This document shows, piece by piece, positions 17,296-24,033 of a stretch of 41,508 nucleotides of DNA (within the stretch, counting starts at the first letter, position 1; every line of letters starts with the position of its first letter). Location of the stretch: the NCBI GenBank assembly GCA_000701625.1, contig JNJK01000036.1, forward strand, positions 1-41,508, read 5' to 3'. A program made the position numbers and the translations under genes. The DNA comes from Lachnospiraceae bacterium MC2017. Its GTDB lineage: Bacteria > Bacillota > Clostridia > Lachnospirales > Lachnospiraceae. Below the pieces are notes generated by a model. That model ran no database searches, was not told where the DNA came from, and saw nothing but the letters and a program-made list of their open reading frames with translations.

Positions 17296-18036
17296 TCAAT
17301 AATTAATATCCCACGCGTTTTTGGGATTTTCGACCCGTTCATCTGATTTTACGGTCGAATTCTTTACTCGTATAACTCTATCTGCAATCTCTGCACATGC
17401 ACTGTTATGTGTTACCATGACAACAGTTCTGCCCTTTTCATGGCTTTCCTTCTGCAATAATTCCAGTATTTCACATCCGGTATTTGTATCAAGCGCACCT
17501 GTAGGCTCATCGCATAATAATAACCTCGGATTTTTCGCAAGTGCTCTTGCTATGGATATTCTCTGCTGTTCACCTCCGGACATCTGTGATGGAAAGTGGT
17601 ACATTCTCTTAGTCAGTCCAACTGCAGCGATCGCGTCTTCCGGACGCATCACCTCTATTTTACCTGTATTCCACACAGATTTCCTTCGTGAATTTGCACG
17701 AACATCTTTCATCAAAGCAACATTTTCATATGCAGTAAGCATCGGGATAAGATTATAAAACTGGAAAACAACACCCACATTCCACGCTCTGTAATCCGTA
17801 AGATCATCATCACTGAATTTCGCTATGTCTTTTCCATCAAATATGATCTCACCCTCTGTCGGTGAATCCATTCCTCCAAGAAGGTTTAAGAGTGTGCTCT
17901 TTCCTGCTCCGGAGGGTCCGAGGATCACTACAAATTCACCTTCTTCAAGATTTAGGTTTATATCATGTATAGCATAAAAGCTCTGGTCCCCCATTGTATA
18001 GGATCTTGATACGTTTTTTAACTCAATTAAGGACAT
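17296..18036 (-). CDS. ABC exporter ATP-binding subunit (MacB/LolD type)
   Basis: This 246-residue ATPase has Walker A GPSGAGKST near residue 40, the Q-loop at VVFQFYNLIP, signature MSGGEQQR near residue 152, Walker B LLLCDEPTGALD and switch His in VTHNS. The type matches the ATPases that partner FtsX-like permeases and adaptor proteins. A short insertion (RANSRRKSVWNTGKIEV) after the Q-loop is unusual. It overlaps the adaptor gene by 14 bases. Together with 18023-21825 it forms a complete MacB-like exporter in a Gram-positive arrangement. The substrate is unknown; the neighbouring COG0523 gene and metal-type operator suggest a link to metal stress. Confidence 0.93.
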   Translation of the reverse strand: MSLIELKNVSRSYTMGDQSFYAIHDINLNLEEGEFVVILGPSGAGKSTLLNLLGGMDSPTEGEIIFDGKDIAKFSDDDLTDYRAWNVGVVFQFYNLIPMLTAYENVALMKDVRANSRRKSVWNTGKIEVMRPEDAIAAVGLTKRMYHFPSQMSGGEQQRISIARALAKNPRLLLCDEPTGALDTNTGCEILELLQKESHEKGRTVVMVTHNSACAEIADRVIRVKNSTVKSDERVENPKNAWDINY

Positions 18037-19507
18037 ACTTTGCTTTTTCTCCTACATTTTTATCCGTGATCGCATCTGTTACCACGATGTCTCCACTCTG
18101 AAGCCCATCTGTTATTTCAACCTCATCCCCATTATTTATACCGCTCTTCACATACTTCTTTTCAATTTTTCCATTTGAAATAACATAGCAGTAATCACCG
18201 TCATTGTCGCTGTAAAATGCTTCCACCGGTACTGTAAGTGTATCTTCCGATTTCTCGGTATAGATCGTCACATCTGCTTCCAGTCCGATTATCGCAGCCT
18301 CATCTGCTCCTTCTATAGAAACCTCCACTTCCACCTTTGTCTTGTCGGATGAATCTTCCTTTGCCAGAGAATTGATCTTTGTTACCGTACCACTGTACTT
18401 TCTCCCGGAGATATCTACTTCTGCTTTTTGTCCTTCTTTAATATCAAGAATATCGTATTTACTTATGTCTGCCCTGCATACCAGATTTTCCGAATTTTCT
18501 ATGGTAAAAAGCGGCGTACCTTCCGTTACATACGCACCATCATGGACATTAAGTTCCGTAACAATTCCGGAAAACTCTGACTTTATTCCATCTGCAGCCT
18601 TCACGTAGTCTTCTGAAACCTGTTCAGCTTCTTTTTTGCTCAGCTCACTGTTTTTTTCAAGAGCCTTCTTTTCATCCTCTTTAAGGATATTCCCTTCGTA
18701 CGCTGCTTTATTACTCTTTGCTTCCGTCCAGTTACGTGTTATATCTTCCATGACATTATTTACGTCATTCATCTCCGAATTTTCATCCGGTGTGACCGCT
18801 CCCTCGCTTGTCACGTTCAGCTGTTTTTTTAAGTCTGCAAGTTCAGTATTTAGCCTGTCTATCTCCTTTTGTGCATCCTTGATATGCTTTACATTACTTT
18901 CAGAATACTCATCTTCCGACTTGGTTCCGTATCCTGTTTCTTTATTCTTTTTATGCTGGCTCTCGCTGATCTCTTTTTCTTTTTCAGCTATTTCTTTATT
19001 TACTGAATCGATCTGGCACTGGATCTGATAGCTTCTATTAAATTCTTCTTCAGAGATCTCATTTCCCTTTTCCCTGTAAAGCCAGTAAAGCGCAGCATAT
19101 GCGTCATCATCATTCACTGCTTTTTGATATTTTTGAGCGTAGTCATTACTCTTTTCTACACTTCCCTTATATTCAAGTTCTGCCATATTAGACTTAATTT
19201 CAGCTTCATCAAGCATACGTTTTAATTCACTATCGTCATACTTTACGACAGTATCACCTTTTTTCACTTTATCCCCGAGTTTAACGGAAATACTTTCTAT
19301 CGGAGCTGTTACAGCTGCATAATAAACTTTATCATCAGCACCATGTATCTTTCCGCTCTCTTTTACACTTCCTTCTATCACGGATCTTTTTACTTCAACA
19401 GCACTGTAAGACGGCGCTGCATTTATCGCATGTAACGTGCCTGATGCAGCCATCACTACTACAATAGCAACTCCGACTAATCTGATTATATCCTTTTTCT
19501 TCATCAT
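18023..19507 (-). CDS. HlyD/MFP-type efflux adaptor subunit
   Basis: This 494-residue adaptor is anchored by an N-terminal membrane helix (about 7-27). A biotinyl-lipoyl-like half follows (about 65-90, IESISVKLGDKVKKGDTVVK), then a long charged coiled coil (about 150-300) and the second lipoyl half (SGIVTELNVHDGAYVTEGTP). It ends in beta-barrel and membrane-proximal domains (VPVEAFYSDNDGDYCYVISNG). This is the RND/MacA-like periplasmic adaptor fold as found in Firmicutes exporters. Its ATG overlaps the permease stop codon (ATGA), indicating translational coupling. Confidence 0.9.
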   Translation of the reverse strand: MMKKKDIIRLVGVAIVVVMAASGTLHAINAAPSYSAVEVKRSVIEGSVKESGKIHGADDKVYYAAVTAPIESISVKLGDKVKKGDTVVKYDDSELKRMLDEAEIKSNMAELEYKGSVEKSNDYAQKYQKAVNDDDAYAALYWLYREKGNEISEEEFNRSYQIQCQIDSVNKEIAEKEKEISESQHKKNKETGYGTKSEDEYSESNVKHIKDAQKEIDRLNTELADLKKQLNVTSEGAVTPDENSEMNDVNNVMEDITRNWTEAKSNKAAYEGNILKEDEKKALEKNSELSKKEAEQVSEDYVKAADGIKSEFSGIVTELNVHDGAYVTEGTPLFTIENSENLVCRADISKYDILDIKEGQKAEVDISGRKYSGTVTKINSLAKEDSSDKTKVEVEVSIEGADEAAIIGLEADVTIYTEKSEDTLTVPVEAFYSDNDGDYCYVISNGKIEKKYVKSGINNGDEVEITDGLQSGDIVVTDAITDKNVGEKAKYVLN

Positions 19508-21825
19508 TCAATTCCCTTCAAAGCTTCAACCATATCTATATCCTTTACCCGCGCAGATAAAAAGAAACTAACTGCACTGGATAAGATAACCGTTCCAAGC
19601 ACCGAGTAAAGATATGACGGTGTAAAAATAATCGCTCTATAATCCATGGACTCTGCCATATCCGACATGATCATGATAAGCAGCAGTCTGCCAAACGGTA
19701 TCCCTACTATTACCCCGACTGCTGTCACCCATAAATTCTGCAGCTGGAGGATCCATCTGATCTTTCCTGTAGAAAACCCAAGTACCTTAAGTGTCGCCAT
19801 CTCTCTTGATTTTTCCACAAACGAAAGTATTCCCTGATTGTAAAGAACCACGACTCCAAGTACGACAGCAGCAGTTATGAAGATTCCCATCATCATATAC
19901 ATCATGGCTTTCATTTCATCCATGGATCTCATCATTTCCTTTGTATCCTGGACATCAACTACATGATCATCGTCTGCAAGTTCTTTTTTTGCATCCATGT
20001 TTGTGAGTATTGTAGTGGGATTAAATTTGTATTCGTGCCGCTCATATATGTTCCGATACATTGTTATCCCCTGCGTCGCAGGATTGACATACAGCTGTAC
20101 CACTCTGTCTTTCTGCCATTTATCATCACCGGTCAGATGCCATCTGACAAAATCACCTTCTTTTATGCCGAGAAGCTCCGCCATCTTTGCAGACATGGCA
20201 ATTCCATTCTCCGTCAGTTTCTTATGTACAAATCCTTCCCCCTGGAAATGCATGTAATTCCCCTTTTCTATAACAGTAACACTGCCGCTCTTTTTAACAG
20301 ACCCCACTTCAAAGTCAGCTGCTGTGTTTTCCATCATCTGTCCTTTATACTTGAGAGCATAATCACGTGTGACAGGATATGTTGTGTCTTCTTTCATTAT
20401 TATCTGATAGCTCGCGGTATTAAGCTGCCCATACATCCAGTCGGTTATAAATTCGATCGAATCCAAACATCCAAAGGCTGTAAGGATAAGCATCGTACAT
20501 CCTGCTACACCTACCACTCCCATTCCTGTCCTGACTTTATTTCTCCTTATGTCTCGCAGGTTCCACTGGGTGGCAAAGGTCAGATGTTTCCATAAACTGC
20601 TTTTTTCAAGACGTGACGCTTTTACAAGTTTCGGAGCTTCAGGTTTTAAGGTTTCTGCCGGCGGAAGCTGCAATTCCCTGCGACATGATAAAAAACTTAC
20701 CAGTGAAGATACTGCAACAGACGCAGTGATCATAAATACACCTGCGAAAGAAAGTCTGCTCGATGCATCCGGCAGCAAATAGGTATCCGACATCATATCA
20801 AAGATCAGCTTCGGGATCATCTTATAGCCGGCAAAAGCGCCCAGTATACTACCTACAAAGCTTAAGACAAATCCATAGGAAACATAGTGCAGGGTGATCA
20901 CCCGCTTTGAAAATCCCAAAGCCTTCAATGTTCCTATTTCTACTCTCTGTCTCTTCGTAAGTCTCGTCATGGTTGTGATTATTCCGAGCACCGATATCAG
21001 CATGAAAACGATCGGAAACATAAAGGACATGCTTGTATGCTGGTTCATCTCTGCCCTAAAAGTCTGATAGCTTAGATTATCGTCTTTATCAAGTACAGCC
21101 AGAGTGTCCATATCAATCGCATCACATATCTTTGACGAAAGCTCATATTTTACATTTTTTTCTTTTTGGGATAGTGCGTTGGAGTTATCGATACCCTCTG
21201 CATCGATGATCACTTCATTAAAATAGACATCTTCCTTCGGATACTCGGATATATCCATAAATGCCATGCCATATGTACCGTATGCCGGCATCATGGACGC
21301 TGCATCCTGAAGATAATAGACATATTCCGGGTTTCGTATCGTTCCCCGGATAACCTCATCAAAGGTCTTTCCTTCATATTTAAGCTTGATCTTATCGCCT
21401 ATATCATAACCATTAAAATCTGCAAATCTGTAATCAAGCCATATCCCGTTTTCACCGGGTTTATATTCTTCGCCCTTTTCTATACCAATCTTCGATATTT
21501 CATTACTCTCAACAAAATTCAGATACATGTCTGCTTCACGTGTATCGAGAACTGCTTTTCCTTTAACAGAAGCACGCCTCTCAGCATCCTTTATCCCCTT
21601 TATTTCCCGAATATGTGAGAGATCATCAGTGGTGAAATTTTTACCCTGAACCCAGATATCGGCAAGTTCGTACTTTGTGTAAAAGGTATCTTCTGCCGCC
21701 GTAAATCCGGCAACTTCAGAATCCATTCCCACAAATACGTACAGGCCCAAAAATGACATGATAAATATCGAAAAAAACTGAACCTTATTTTTTATAAGGT
21801 TTCTTAACATATTTCTGAAGAGCAA
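19504..21825 (-). CDS. ABC exporter permease, FtsX-like (two FtsX domains)
   Basis: This permease of about 773 residues has an N-terminal membrane helix, a large extracellular domain (about 40-260) and three helices of a first FtsX domain (about 270-390). After a second extracellular domain come three more helices near the C-terminus (about 650-765). GTLKALGFSKRVITLHY and ATLKVLGFSTGKIRWIL are the paired FtsX signatures. Translation probably begins at TTG 21825, ten bases after AGGAG; ATG 21810 is the alternative. It heads the operon permease-adaptor-ATPase-COG0523 under a TTGACA-N17-TATCGT promoter with a TTAGY-N4-RCTAA operator. Confidence 0.92.
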   Translation of the reverse strand: MLFRNMLRNLIKNKVQFFSIFIMSFLGLYVFVGMDSEVAGFTAAEDTFYTKYELADIWVQGKNFTTDDLSHIREIKGIKDAERRASVKGKAVLDTREADMYLNFVESNEISKIGIEKGEEYKPGENGIWLDYRFADFNGYDIGDKIKLKYEGKTFDEVIRGTIRNPEYVYYLQDAASMMPAYGTYGMAFMDISEYPKEDVYFNEVIIDAEGIDNSNALSQKEKNVKYELSSKICDAIDMDTLAVLDKDDNLSYQTFRAEMNQHTSMSFMFPIVFMLISVLGIITTMTRLTKRQRVEIGTLKALGFSKRVITLHYVSYGFVLSFVGSILGAFAGYKMIPKLIFDMMSDTYLLPDASSRLSFAGVFMITASVAVSSLVSFLSCRRELQLPPAETLKPEAPKLVKASRLEKSSLWKHLTFATQWNLRDIRRNKVRTGMGVVGVAGCTMLILTAFGCLDSIEFITDWMYGQLNTASYQIIMKEDTTYPVTRDYALKYKGQMMENTAADFEVGSVKKSGSVTVIEKGNYMHFQGEGFVHKKLTENGIAMSAKMAELLGIKEGDFVRWHLTGDDKWQKDRVVQLYVNPATQGITMYRNIYERHEYKFNPTTILTNMDAKKELADDDHVVDVQDTKEMMRSMDEMKAMMYMMMGIFITAAVVLGVVVLYNQGILSFVEKSREMATLKVLGFSTGKIRWILQLQNLWVTAVGVIVGIPFGRLLLIMIMSDMAESMDYRAIIFTPSYLYSVLGTVILSSAVSFFLSARVKDIDMVEALKGIE

Positions 21826-21845: not shown

Positions 21846-21889
21846 TTAGTCTTAGCTAACACGATAATTCTCCCCTTGCAATTTGTCAA
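21846..21889 (-). promoter_or_regulatory. Exporter operon promoter with operator O1
   Basis: On the minus strand, -35 TTGACA (21889-21884), 17 bases, and -10 TATCGT (21866-21861). Directly after the -10 lies TTAGTCTTAGCTAA (plus strand, 21846-21859), a 5-4-5 inverted repeat covering the expected start of transcription. The position fits repression. Confidence 0.75.
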
Positions 21890-21951: not shown

Positions 21952-22569
21952 TTACACTGCATATGAGTGTGAATACATATCATCTCCGATCCTGTTGTCG
22001 GCTATGACTTTCATTATACTCACACCGGAGAGAAGTTCTCTCATCATTTTTTCCGTAATGGCATCATAGCACTGAAACAGCGCCGCTGCCGTATCCGGAT
22101 CGGTATAAACTTTCCAGTACCCGTTAAGCAGATAATTTTTACCATCCTGCTCAATATACCCGATCACATCGCCGATCGGATACCCCAGAAAGAGTCCCAA
22201 TTCATCCGGAAATCCCGCTGCTCCCTCCATACATGCCGTATAACGTGATGATACTTCCTGTATCGCATCATGCAGTGATCCGGACGAAAATCCGCGTTCT
22301 CTGAAAAACAACATATTTTTGTTGTCTCTAAGTATCCGCTCCAGTCTGTCCTTGTGATATATAAGATATGTCACTTTTTTATCGTTCTGATACAGGATTG
22401 CCCAGGACAGACCTATCGCCCGTATGATCCTCAGTGCCGCCGATATCATTTCACGGTCCAGGATAAGGAGGTTACTTATCTTTAATCCTGATAATACCGG
22501 TGCGCACTGATAAATCAACGTATGCTCAAGTTCACGAAAATTTATAATGTCATATACATCCCTACTCAT
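21952..22569 (-). CDS. DUF3793 family protein
   Basis: This 205-residue soluble protein matches DUF3793, found in Clostridia beside flavodoxin and often beside feoAB iron-uptake genes. Characteristic pieces are CAPVLSGLKISNLL near residue 22, LIYHKDRLERIL near residue 70, the FPDELGLFLGYPIGDVIGYI block near residue 122 and NYLLNGYWKVY near residue 146. No catalytic motif is obvious and no function is known. Its ATG overlaps the flavodoxin stop (ATGA), so the two are translated together. The context of flavodoxin and a metal-type operator suggests a role in iron limitation. Confidence 0.85.
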   Translation of the reverse strand: MSRDVYDIINFRELEHTLIYQCAPVLSGLKISNLLILDREMISAALRIIRAIGLSWAILYQNDKKVTYLIYHKDRLERILRDNKNMLFFRERGFSSGSLHDAIQEVSSRYTACMEGAAGFPDELGLFLGYPIGDVIGYIEQDGKNYLLNGYWKVYTDPDTAAALFQCYDAITEKMMRELLSGVSIMKVIADNRIGDDMYSHSYAV

Positions 22570-22997
22570 GCTTTAACAAGTGCCTGACCCAGGGCTTCGC
22601 AATCACTCATGGCATCATCATCAGGTGCATTATTAGCAATGACCCCTTCACCGTTTACAACAGTTGCTCCATCAGATGATACTCTGTCCTGCCATGATGT
22701 CATCCACTCTCCGGATCCCCATCCATAGGAACCGAACAATGCAACCTTCTTGCCTCCGATAAGGCCATCAAGTTCAGCCATGAAAGGCTCAACTTCTCCC
22801 TCTTCCAATACCTCTGCTCCCATTGCAGGACAGCCAAGTGCAAATCTGTCATCCTTTGCAAGGTCAGCCGCAGAAAGCTCACTGAACCCTAAGAGGCTTG
22901 CCTTTCCTCCGGCTGCCTGAATTCCCTTCGCAACAGCCTCTGCCATAGCCTGTGTATTACCTGTTCCGCTCCAATATACAACCTTTATCTCTGCCAT
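22566..22997 (-). CDS. Flavodoxin
   Basis: This 143-residue flavodoxin has the FMN phosphate loop WSGTGNTQAMAEAV at residues 9-22, the first isoalloxazine loop at LGCPAMGAEVLEE near residue 54 and the second at SYGWGSGEWMTSWQD near residue 90. It is a short-chain type. Flavodoxin carries electrons in place of ferredoxin and is commonly induced by iron shortage. It is the first gene of a two-gene unit with DUF3793, transcribed from a promoter with two operators. Confidence 0.96.
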   Translation of the reverse strand: MAEIKVVYWSGTGNTQAMAEAVAKGIQAAGGKASLLGFSELSAADLAKDDRFALGCPAMGAEVLEEGEVEPFMAELDGLIGGKKVALFGSYGWGSGEWMTSWQDRVSSDGATVVNGEGVIANNAPDDDAMSDCEALGQALVKA

Positions 22998-23023: not shown

Positions 23024-23075
23024 TTAGTATAAACTAACTATATAAGATATTAGCACTAGCTAACAGCAATCACAA
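23024..23075 (-). promoter_or_regulatory. Flavodoxin promoter with operators O2 and O3
   Basis: On the minus strand, -35 TTGTGA (23075-23070), 17 bases, and -10 TAATAT (23052-23047). O3, TTAGCACTAGCTAA (23050-23063), covers the spacer and -10. O2, TTAGTATAAACTAA (23024-23037), lies just after the expected start of transcription near 23040. Both are perfect 5-4-5 inverted repeats, 26 bp apart centre to centre. Confidence 0.8.
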
Positions 23076-23084
23076 GTGTTTTCA

Positions 23085-23100
23085 TGATAATTGTTTATCA
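23085..23100. promoter_or_regulatory. Palindrome resembling a Fur box
   Basis: TGATAATTGTTTATCA is a perfect inverted repeat (TGATAA / TTATCA) ten bases upstream of the flavodoxin -35. It is one base longer than the 7-1-7 Fur consensus, so identity as a Fur site is uncertain. Confidence 0.4.
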
Positions 23101-23145
23101 ATAAGCAGTAATTGAGGGAATTTCAACGAAATATCCTATAAACAA

Positions 23146-23223
23146 GTTACGCTAGGCTCGATAAGACCTCGCCAAGCGAACTTGCATAGCACGCACTAAG
23201 CTCGAAAATACCTCGCTAAGTGC
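23146..23223. repeat. Two REP-like palindromic repeats
   Basis: Units 23146-23181 and 23193-23223 share CTCGA-nAAnA-CCTCGC within imperfect inverted-repeat arms (GTTACGCTAGGC / GCCAAGCGAAC and GCACTAAGC / GCTAAGTGC). Each has the same type of mismatch in the arm and the same loop. They lie between the sRNA terminator and the flavodoxin promoter, in neither predicted transcript. They look like dispersed intergenic palindromes. Confidence 0.6.
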
Positions 23224-23234
23224 TCCGCATAAGT

Positions 23235-23317
23235 AAAAACAGTCGCGGCTGGCTCGACCGCGACTGCATTCTGAATAGGAGAAATCTAAATTTTACTTAT
23301 CGTTAGTTTTTGCTAAC
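23235..23317 (-). ncRNA. Candidate metal-regulated small RNA 1 (~83 nt)
   Basis: A promoter (23324-23352) and a strong terminator (23235-23266) bracket about 83 bases without a convincing coding frame. The RNA would start with a hairpin, GUUAG-CAAAAA-CUAAC. A mostly unpaired stretch containing UCUCCUAUU follows (23274-23282 on the plus strand), complementary to Shine-Dalgarno sequences. It ends in CAGUCGCGG-N9-CCGCGACUG-UUUUU. In addition AUAAGUAAAA (23291-23300) is perfectly complementary to UUUUACUUAU at the 3' end (23229-23238), giving an alternative long-range helix. Architecture and regulation recall Fur-controlled FsrA of Bacillus subtilis, but no homology is claimed. Confidence 0.6.
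23240..23266 (-). terminator. Terminator of candidate sRNA 1
   Basis: A perfect 9-bp GC-rich stem, CAGTCGCGG / CCGCGACTG, with a 9-base loop is followed on the minus strand by TTTTTAC. No gene precedes it on this strand other than the predicted small RNA. Confidence 0.88.
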
Positions 23318-23352
23318 AAGGTTATATTAGCACTAACTAACGCACATGTCAA
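23303..23352 (-). promoter_or_regulatory. Promoter of candidate sRNA 1 with operators O4 and O5
   Basis: On the minus strand, -35 TTGACA (23352-23347), 17 bases, and -10 TAATAT (23329-23324). O5, TTAGCACTAACTAA (23327-23340), overlaps the spacer and -10. O4, TTAGTTTTTGCTAA (23303-23316), covers the transcription start. The layout is nearly the same as at flavodoxin, with centres 24 bp apart. Confidence 0.78.
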
Positions 23353-23374
23353 CACTCACTTTAAATATAAAAAG

Positions 23375-23401
23375 CCGATAACCATAGAGCATGGTTATCG
23401 G
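23375..23401. terminator. Terminator at the end of the sugar operon
   Basis: A perfect 11-bp stem, CCGATAACCAT / ATGGTTATCGG, with a 5-base loop. T-rich tracts follow on both strands (CTTTTTAT on the minus strand, TATTTTTATTTT on the plus strand). It lies 6 bases beyond the last gene of the sugar operon. Confidence 0.92.
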
Positions 23402-23406
23402 TATTT

Positions 23407-24033
23407 TTATTTTGCCAAAAGATCTCTAAAAACATCTTCTAACGGTACTTTAGAGAAATCCGTCACATCTGTCCTTACTGTTCTGCCCAGCGCGATATTA
23501 TAATCGCGTCCTTGGATTCCCTTACTGAATTCTTCAAAACTCAGTATTTTTCTATCACTTCCGTTCAGATCTTCCTTCTTAAAATTTTCAATATGGTACT
23601 TATTCACCAGATGTCCCGGATGCCTTTCTCCTCCGTTATCTCTGGTCATACCTCGTTCATAAGCGGTTCTTAGATCAGTATACAGGTATAGCGTCACCGC
23701 ATTGTAATGATATTCTGTTATGAGTTCCAGTAATTTCTGCTTGTGATACTGATAAAATGGGTATTCTATTAATATGGTCTTATTTCGCCACATTAGCTTA
23801 CGGATCGTCAGATAAAATTCCTCAAGAGCAAATTCATTTACTCTTTTCTTTTCGTTCTCGTTTTCAAATCCGAATACATCCCATTCTTTTTCTTTGAAAT
23901 CATCATAGCTTACTTTTGCAATATCATCGTCACCCAGAAAGTTCAAAAATTTTTTTGCGATACCGCTCTTACCTGTCCCCGGACCTCCTGTGATTATGAA
24001 GATCGTACGCTGGTATTCAAACGGTTCTGTCAT
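23407..24033 (-). CDS. P-loop kinase-like ATP-binding protein of unknown substrate
   Basis: This 208-residue single-domain P-loop protein has Walker A GGPGTGKSGIAKK near residue 16. It resembles small-molecule kinases (zeta toxin/nucleoside kinase-like): ILIEYPFYQYHK as the Walker B-like strand near residue 85 and YLYTDLRTAYERGMTRD as a lid. It is the last gene of the sugar operon, and its ATG overlaps the stop of the PfkB gene. A phosphotransfer step in sugar use is possible, but the substrate cannot be read from the sequence. Confidence 0.7.
   Translation of the reverse strand: MTEPFEYQRTIFIITGGPGTGKSGIAKKFLNFLGDDDIAKVSYDDFKEKEWDVFGFENENEKKRVNEFALEEFYLTIRKLMWRNKTILIEYPFYQYHKQKLLELITEYHYNAVTLYLYTDLRTAYERGMTRDNGGERHPGHLVNKYHIENFKKEDLNGSDRKILSFEEFSKGIQGRDYNIALGRTVRTDVTDFSKVPLEDVFRDLLAK

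Follow-up and report, generated by a model that had tools for sequence, protein, structure and literature searches.

The minus-strand locus at 23231..23317 of the window (the whole 41,508-nucleotide stretch of DNA analyzed here) most probably encodes a trans-acting, metal-repressed and probably DtxR-controlled iron-sparing sRNA of the FsrA/RyhB kind, a reading to which we assign a probability of roughly 0.78 and for which we infer transcription, metal, regulator and translational repression from the sequence. With iron in good supply, two GTTAG-N6-CTAAC palindromes would be occupied by a repressor (most likely a DtxR-family protein, with Fe2+ as its most likely metal), shutting the promoter; as iron falls, an RNA of ~85 nt would be made, stopping at its own hairpin terminator. 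Its unpaired UUUAGAUUUCUCCUAUU would then pair with mRNAs of iron-using proteins at their Shine-Dalgarno region and block ribosome binding, the proposed targets being ferredoxin, Fe-alcohol dehydrogenases, a LeuD-type operon, a radical-SAM protein, a NUBPL-type cluster carrier and cysteine-motif flavoenzymes. Flavodoxin, under the same kind of operator, would replace ferredoxin. A first-pass annotation had proposed a metal-repressed, FsrA-like sRNA with an anti-Shine-Dalgarno segment; that proposal gains support from a conserved RNA gene, from the start sites of iron genes and from covariation between seed and ferredoxin leader.

The locus and its flavodoxin neighbor comprise the following features.

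23347..23352, minus strand: -35 hexamer TTGACA, read from the sequence.
23324..23329, minus strand: -10 hexamer TAATAT, read from the sequence and compared with relatives.
23327..23341, minus strand: operator 1, GTTAGTTAGTGCTAA, covering spacer and -10 hexamer; from the palindrome scan.
23302..23317, minus strand: operator 2, GTTAGCAAAAACTAAC, at the putative transcription start; palindrome matches on both strands.
23231..23317, minus strand: predicted small RNA of ~85 nt, with both ends inferred; from fold and covariance models.
23276..23287, minus strand: conserved seed AGATTTCTCCTA, complementary to ribosome-binding sites; from alignments and pairing tests.
23239..23267, minus strand: terminator hairpin of 11 pairs; stem read from the sequence, 10 of 11 pairs covarying.
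23050..23064, minus strand: operator of the sRNA-promoter kind at the flavodoxin promoter; from the palindrome scan.
23024-23038: GTTAG-N6-CTAA palindrome at flavodoxin; from the palindrome scan.
22566..22997, minus strand: flavodoxin gene (PF00258); from the open reading frame and Pfam.

The promoter (TTGACA-17-TAATAT, minus strand 23352..23324; matches 10/12) has a -35/-10 spacing of 17 bp that recurs at 20 of 21 sRNA loci, the remaining one (G025) being a locus without a reading. Operator 1 is present at 18 of the 21. Scanned for GTTAG-N6-CTAA palindromes, the window yields six matches (operator 2 matching on both strands) against 0.18 expected, a number reached in none of 100 shuffles, and no open reading frame of at least 60 aa lies between the neighbors ending at 22997 and 23407. 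The arrangement described in the first-pass annotation, a promoter with two operators followed by a GC-rich terminator with no gene between, was thus recovered in all its parts: the palindromes, the 11-pair stem and the ORF-free gap.

Several further elements surround the locus. Just upstream of the sRNA promoter, a near-perfect 12-bp bidirectional terminator-like hairpin (23374-23402) separates and insulates it from a kinase-like gene (23407-24033). Between the sRNA terminator and flavodoxin, positions 23140-23232 hold two imperfect repeat hairpins (TTAGCGAGGT..TCGAGCTTAG); similar copies of 29-45 bp are found on contigs C5, C16, C6 and C8, and the second hairpin also on C2. Downstream of flavodoxin and a DUF3793 gene, a GTTAG-N6-CTAA palindrome (21846-21860) precedes an ABC-transporter permease operon (17296-21825).

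The 85-nt predicted RNA folds at -24.5 kcal/mol (z -3.74), and none of 200 shuffles folds as well. In this predicted fold the anti-Shine-Dalgarno stretch UCUCCUAUU is unpaired, and the unpaired AUUUCUCCUA core is nearly invariant. The terminator, in turn, is kept as a structure: across 16 sequences both sides change in 10 of its 11 pairs, with 48 double-change cells against 13.6 in shuffles and a covariation score of 0.449 against 0.138, two sequences (G015 and G031) that lie one column out of register being scored as breaks. The 5' hairpin coincides with the DNA palindrome of operator 2 and its five pairs are invariant in the 16 sequences, so that it neither supports nor opposes a role in the RNA. 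A long-range helix around the CUCCU loop had also been suggested; the 10-nt complementarity between 23229-23238 and 23291-23300 is exact in the window but is not conserved, the longest perfect complement in 20 relatives being at most 6 nt, and we rejected it. Since the complement of the seed resembles a Shine-Dalgarno site, an opposite-strand gene or small peptide was considered as well. Reading frames of at least 12 codons with an SD-like stretch occur on that strand at 4 of 21 loci only (G010, G031, G139 and RUI060, the last also on the sense strand) and are absent from the rest, which argues against a conserved peptide, and this candidate was likewise rejected.

Conservation was followed from DNA matches to covariance models. 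In a DNA search of 61 genomes (the window's own and 60 others), G014 (NK4A144) and G009 matched strongly and G032, G010, G015 and G031 more weakly; with E up to 1 something is matched in 36 of the 61, mostly by chance. The first nine aligned loci have a pair of operators and the core ATTTCTCCTA in common, as well as a 3' hairpin of differing sequence. Scanning GTDB contigs with a pattern gave 17 loci, 14 of which show operator, core and hairpin by eye; one (L053, in G007) is unclear, and two (L057, L058) resemble chance matches. Because the scan pattern demanded the core, it is not proof of core conservation, which the covariance-model searches are able to show: these recovered core variants, namely CTCCTT (G139, G020), ATTCTCCTA (G128, G461) and, more distant, ATTCTTCTA (G102). 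In going from alignment A3 to A4, RUI060 (hairpin misaligned) and G025 (operator split) were removed, and the unclear G007 locus was also omitted.

With model R2, 19 of the 48 genus genomes searched have a match at E <1e-8, G461 follows at 4e-5, and 28 of the 48 have a match at E up to 0.05. Among the weak ones that were inspected by eye, that in G034 (L219, E 0.007) looks real and four others (L218, L220, L221, L222) do not; the matches in G020, G035 and G461 come from genomes used in no alignment. R2 found no match in some nearly complete genomes of the genus (G028, G006, G030, G460, G004, G003). Model R1, with E up to 0.05, matched 9 of 397 family genomes, of which five are real by eye (the window's own, G440, G139, G128, G102) and four unconvincing; G128 and G102 belong to two other genera, and by eye the G102 locus (L040) is probably a distant relative, unlike L042. 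Outside the genus the RNA is therefore rare or too diverged for detection. Judged on sequence and conservation, the locus is a conserved, free-standing RNA gene with its own promoter and terminator, as in the class of iron-sparing sRNAs (RyhB, FsrA, IsrR, PrrF, MrsI), and it is conserved in rumen and gut Lachnospiraceae. The conservation reaches well past the operators, into the core and the covarying terminator, and an absence of such conservation had been named at the outset as a point against an sRNA.

The neighborhoods bear on whether the RNA could instead be a cis-acting leader or attenuator of the gene downstream. Flavodoxin does lie downstream on the same strand in the window's genome, G014 and G009 (the last by eye), as such a reading would have it; elsewhere the RNA is followed by other genes, such as acetate kinase in G031 (with DtxR- and Fur-family genes upstream), or by convergent ones (clpB at both the G025 and the G033 locus; in G023, where feoB is also a neighbor, a DtxR-family gene). 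In addition, flavodoxin carries an operator and, by eye, a promoter of its own, and the sRNA terminator is kept by covariation. Because the neighborhoods differ between species, with no constant same-strand position before one gene family and some neighbors convergent, we rejected a cis-acting role, which we hold to be very improbable. The ordinary flavodoxin leader against which the first-pass annotation had set its own proposal is met, at the level of sequence, by varying neighbors and a separate flavodoxin operator.

As for the presumed trans-acting RNA, its regulator is probably a DtxR-type Fe2+ repressor, judging from the operators and their company. The sRNA-type palindrome recurs at flavodoxin and, judged by eye, ahead of a feoA-like gene in G007, and DtxR-family genes adjoin the sRNA in G031 and G023. 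The strict operator form GTTAGYNNNNGCTAA has seven matches in the window's genome: three at the sRNA locus and flavodoxin, two at a second sRNA described below, and one each before an ABC transporter and an enolase (both named by eye). The enolase palindrome (L192, C7:181535-181549 of the same genome) is operator-like, lies between promoter and gene start, and may be real or chance. The DtxR family includes Mn sensors, and RsaC of S. aureus is placed under MntR in a table of PMC9294342, so that the RNA might in principle answer Mn2+ through an MntR-type member and spare or replace that metal; the same palindrome before flavodoxin and feoA (by eye, G007), the feoB neighbor in G023 and predicted targets that are iron proteins all weigh against this, and we judge a manganese response improbable. 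Upstream of the flavodoxin promoter, TGATAATTGTTTATCA at 23085-23100 forms a palindrome that we take to be Fur-box-like. Fur-box-like palindromes are also seen by eye upstream of some sRNA promoters (G031, G010), which suggests dual control by Fur and a DtxR-type regulator.

Targets in the window's genome were sought by pattern searches in place of a whole-genome target ranking. The 12-mer AGGAGAAATCTA occurs there exactly three times: as the complement of the sRNA, at the start of an iron-containing alcohol dehydrogenase and at that of an FMN-reductase-like protein that has a cysteine cluster. Searched for ahead of start codons, the G-U tolerant pattern AGGAGRRRTYT yielded 36 rows, among them 23 sites whose ORF has at least 50 aa, a denominator in which three loci without a Pfam scan (L148, L151, L162) were kept. 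Eight of these 23 are iron-related, six by Pfam (two Fe-ADH, Radical_SAM, the NUBPL iron-transfer NTPase, Fer4, and Aconitase_C, a LeuD-type protein whose adjoining gene looks LeuC-like) and two by eye from cysteine motifs (the flavoenzymes FMN_dh and FMN_red). No iron domain was found among the 22 scanned genes of the window's 33, and 8/23 against 0/22 gives a Fisher p of 0.0023. The control pattern AGGAGTYTRRR has nine sites with an ORF, one of them iron-related by eye, and against this control (1/9) the enrichment is not significant (p 0.19); nor, within the 23 sites, do iron genes pair significantly better than the others (p 0.087). Likewise, the G-U tolerant 14-nt pattern TRGGRGRRRTYTRR shows no excess over its reversed control, either in the window's genome (4 vs 6) or in 11 relatives. 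The extended complement at iron-protein start sites is suggestive, not proof.

Across species, we read the start regions of seven targets in the window's genome and up to 22 others, and compared pairing with a flank-shuffle test in which UCUCCU was kept and its flanks were shuffled. Among carriers of the sRNA with a close ortholog, pairing is good for the leaders of the FMN-dehydrogenase (4/4), LeuD1 (4/4), the Isf-like protein (5/5, two of them borderline at 0.05) and NUBPL (5/7). The Fe-ADH leader pairs well in the window's genome, G014 and G009, less in G010 and G021, and does not do so in G440, where the pairing is lost, or in most others, and the radical-SAM leader pairs in four close carriers, is borderline in G015 and fails in the other 11 of 16. 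Ferredoxin is the widest target, with 11 of 16 carriers at or below 0.05; flank-shuffle results include fewer than 1 in 1000 (LeuD), 1 in 1000 (ferredoxin of G015) and 2 in 1000 (Isf).

Seed and leader differ in parallel. Seven of the ten A-type carriers (seed AGAUUUCUCC) have a ferredoxin leader of the GGAAATTT, GGAATTT or GGAATCT type, with C or U opposite the seed G (the exceptions being G457, G032 and G459), and of the B-type carriers (seed AUAUUUCUCC), the five examined all show A or G opposite U. In 13 of the 16 seed carriers (G014, G009 and G459 omitted as near-duplicates), matched RNA-ferredoxin pairs average -16.9 kcal/mol against -14.4 for mismatched ones, and 7 of 100000 permutations are as low; the corresponding counts are 52 of 50000 without two sister lineages and 1468 of 50000 when permuted within seed types only, all of them approximate since the lineages share ancestry. 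Matched residuals are negative in 12 of the 13 lineages. The exception, with a positive residual, is the window's own genome, whose ferredoxin pairing is average (-13; 0.118 in the flank-shuffle test). The computation shows that RNA seed and ferredoxin leader have changed together across species, a parallel change that supplies natural variants for direct pairing tests. Base-pairing with iron-protein mRNAs, a mark of iron-sparing sRNAs, accordingly reads as a prediction from start sites and ferredoxin covariation, with partly weak controls.

These data also weigh on a different account, in which a real metal-regulated sRNA has other targets, or works on ribosomes or a protein, and pairing with iron-protein mRNAs is a by-product of its anti-Shine-Dalgarno sequence. 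Any CUCCU pairs with AGGAG, genome-wide, the pattern is no more frequent than its reversed control, and some genomes lacking the sRNA score well; in three without a detected sRNA, the ferredoxin leaders would pair with a B-type seed (-16.0 to -16.8). A pure by-product sits poorly with real flanks that beat shuffled ones at many iron-gene leaders (LeuD, Isf, G015 ferredoxin) and with matched RNA-ferredoxin pairs that outdo mismatched ones, and we regard this account as unlikely, if less so than a manganese response.

The window's genome holds a paralogue of the sRNA at C8:8572-8653 (L169:3073-3154 minus; model R1, 33 bits, E 0.004), upstream of a pyruvate formate-lyase-like gene. It has its own promoter, two operators, seed UUUCAGAUUUCUCUUACC, a terminator and an extra hairpin, and its seed is shifted relative to the first (UUUCUCUUACC). 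Further copies lie at C20:61275 in G014, C54:12059 in G009 and C24:36132 in G440, in each case sharing a contig with the first sRNA, ~10 kb away; over the transcribed part, the G014 copy is nearly identical and the G440 copy largely so. Taken together, we lean towards a new iron-sparing sRNA family in anaerobic Lachnospiraceae, under DtxR-type rather than Fur control, with two main seed types evolving in step with the ferredoxin ribosome-binding site and a paralogous sRNA whose seed is shifted. If true, both sRNAs and the co-regulated flavodoxin would shift electron transfer and pyruvate cleavage off iron.

Known RNAs offer analogies. No Rfam family reaches gathering score in the window, nor, except for a tRNA, at eight relative loci, and a literature search outside subscription papers and preprints found no published description of the RNA, which agrees with the initial remark that no described RNA of this sequence was known. 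LhrC of Listeria is an anti-Shine-Dalgarno type RNA. Its model (RF00616) matched the sRNA strand in a permissive Rfam scan with 21.9 bits, where the gathering score is 110 (E 0.58), values that do not speak for homology. Anaerobes such as Clostridia lean on ferredoxin in their energy metabolism. PMC9410917 describes iron-sparing sRNAs from enterics, pseudomonads, Bacillus, staphylococci and mycobacteria, and the table of a 2022 review reports no sRNA for Fe-sensing DtxR (PMC9294342).

FsrA of Bacillus subtilis is Fur-controlled, requires FbpABC and binds Shine-Dalgarno sequences by a C-rich motif (PMC9410917). As an iron-repressed sRNA against iron-containing enzymes, FsrA has the role predicted for the Lachnospiraceae RNA, whose operators, in contrast, are not Fur boxes, whose host class differs and which has no Rfam match. 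IsrR of staphylococci is iron-repressed through two operators, conserved in its genus and predicted to target mRNAs of Fe-S enzymes (PMC9410917). Two operators, genus-level conservation and predicted iron-protein targets recur in the Lachnospiraceae RNA; unlike it, IsrR has Fur boxes and three C-rich regions in three stem-loops, whereas the Lachnospiraceae RNA has one seed between operator palindrome and terminator. IdeR is a DtxR-family regulator. MrsI of Mycobacterium tuberculosis, with predicted IdeR control and predicted iron sparing in PMC9410917, shares predicted DtxR-family control and iron sparing with the Lachnospiraceae RNA; it is actinobacterial, and the sequences were compared through Rfam scans only. 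An iron-sparing sRNA in Clostridia would, if true, be the same solution arisen separately, in ferredoxin-dependent anaerobes.
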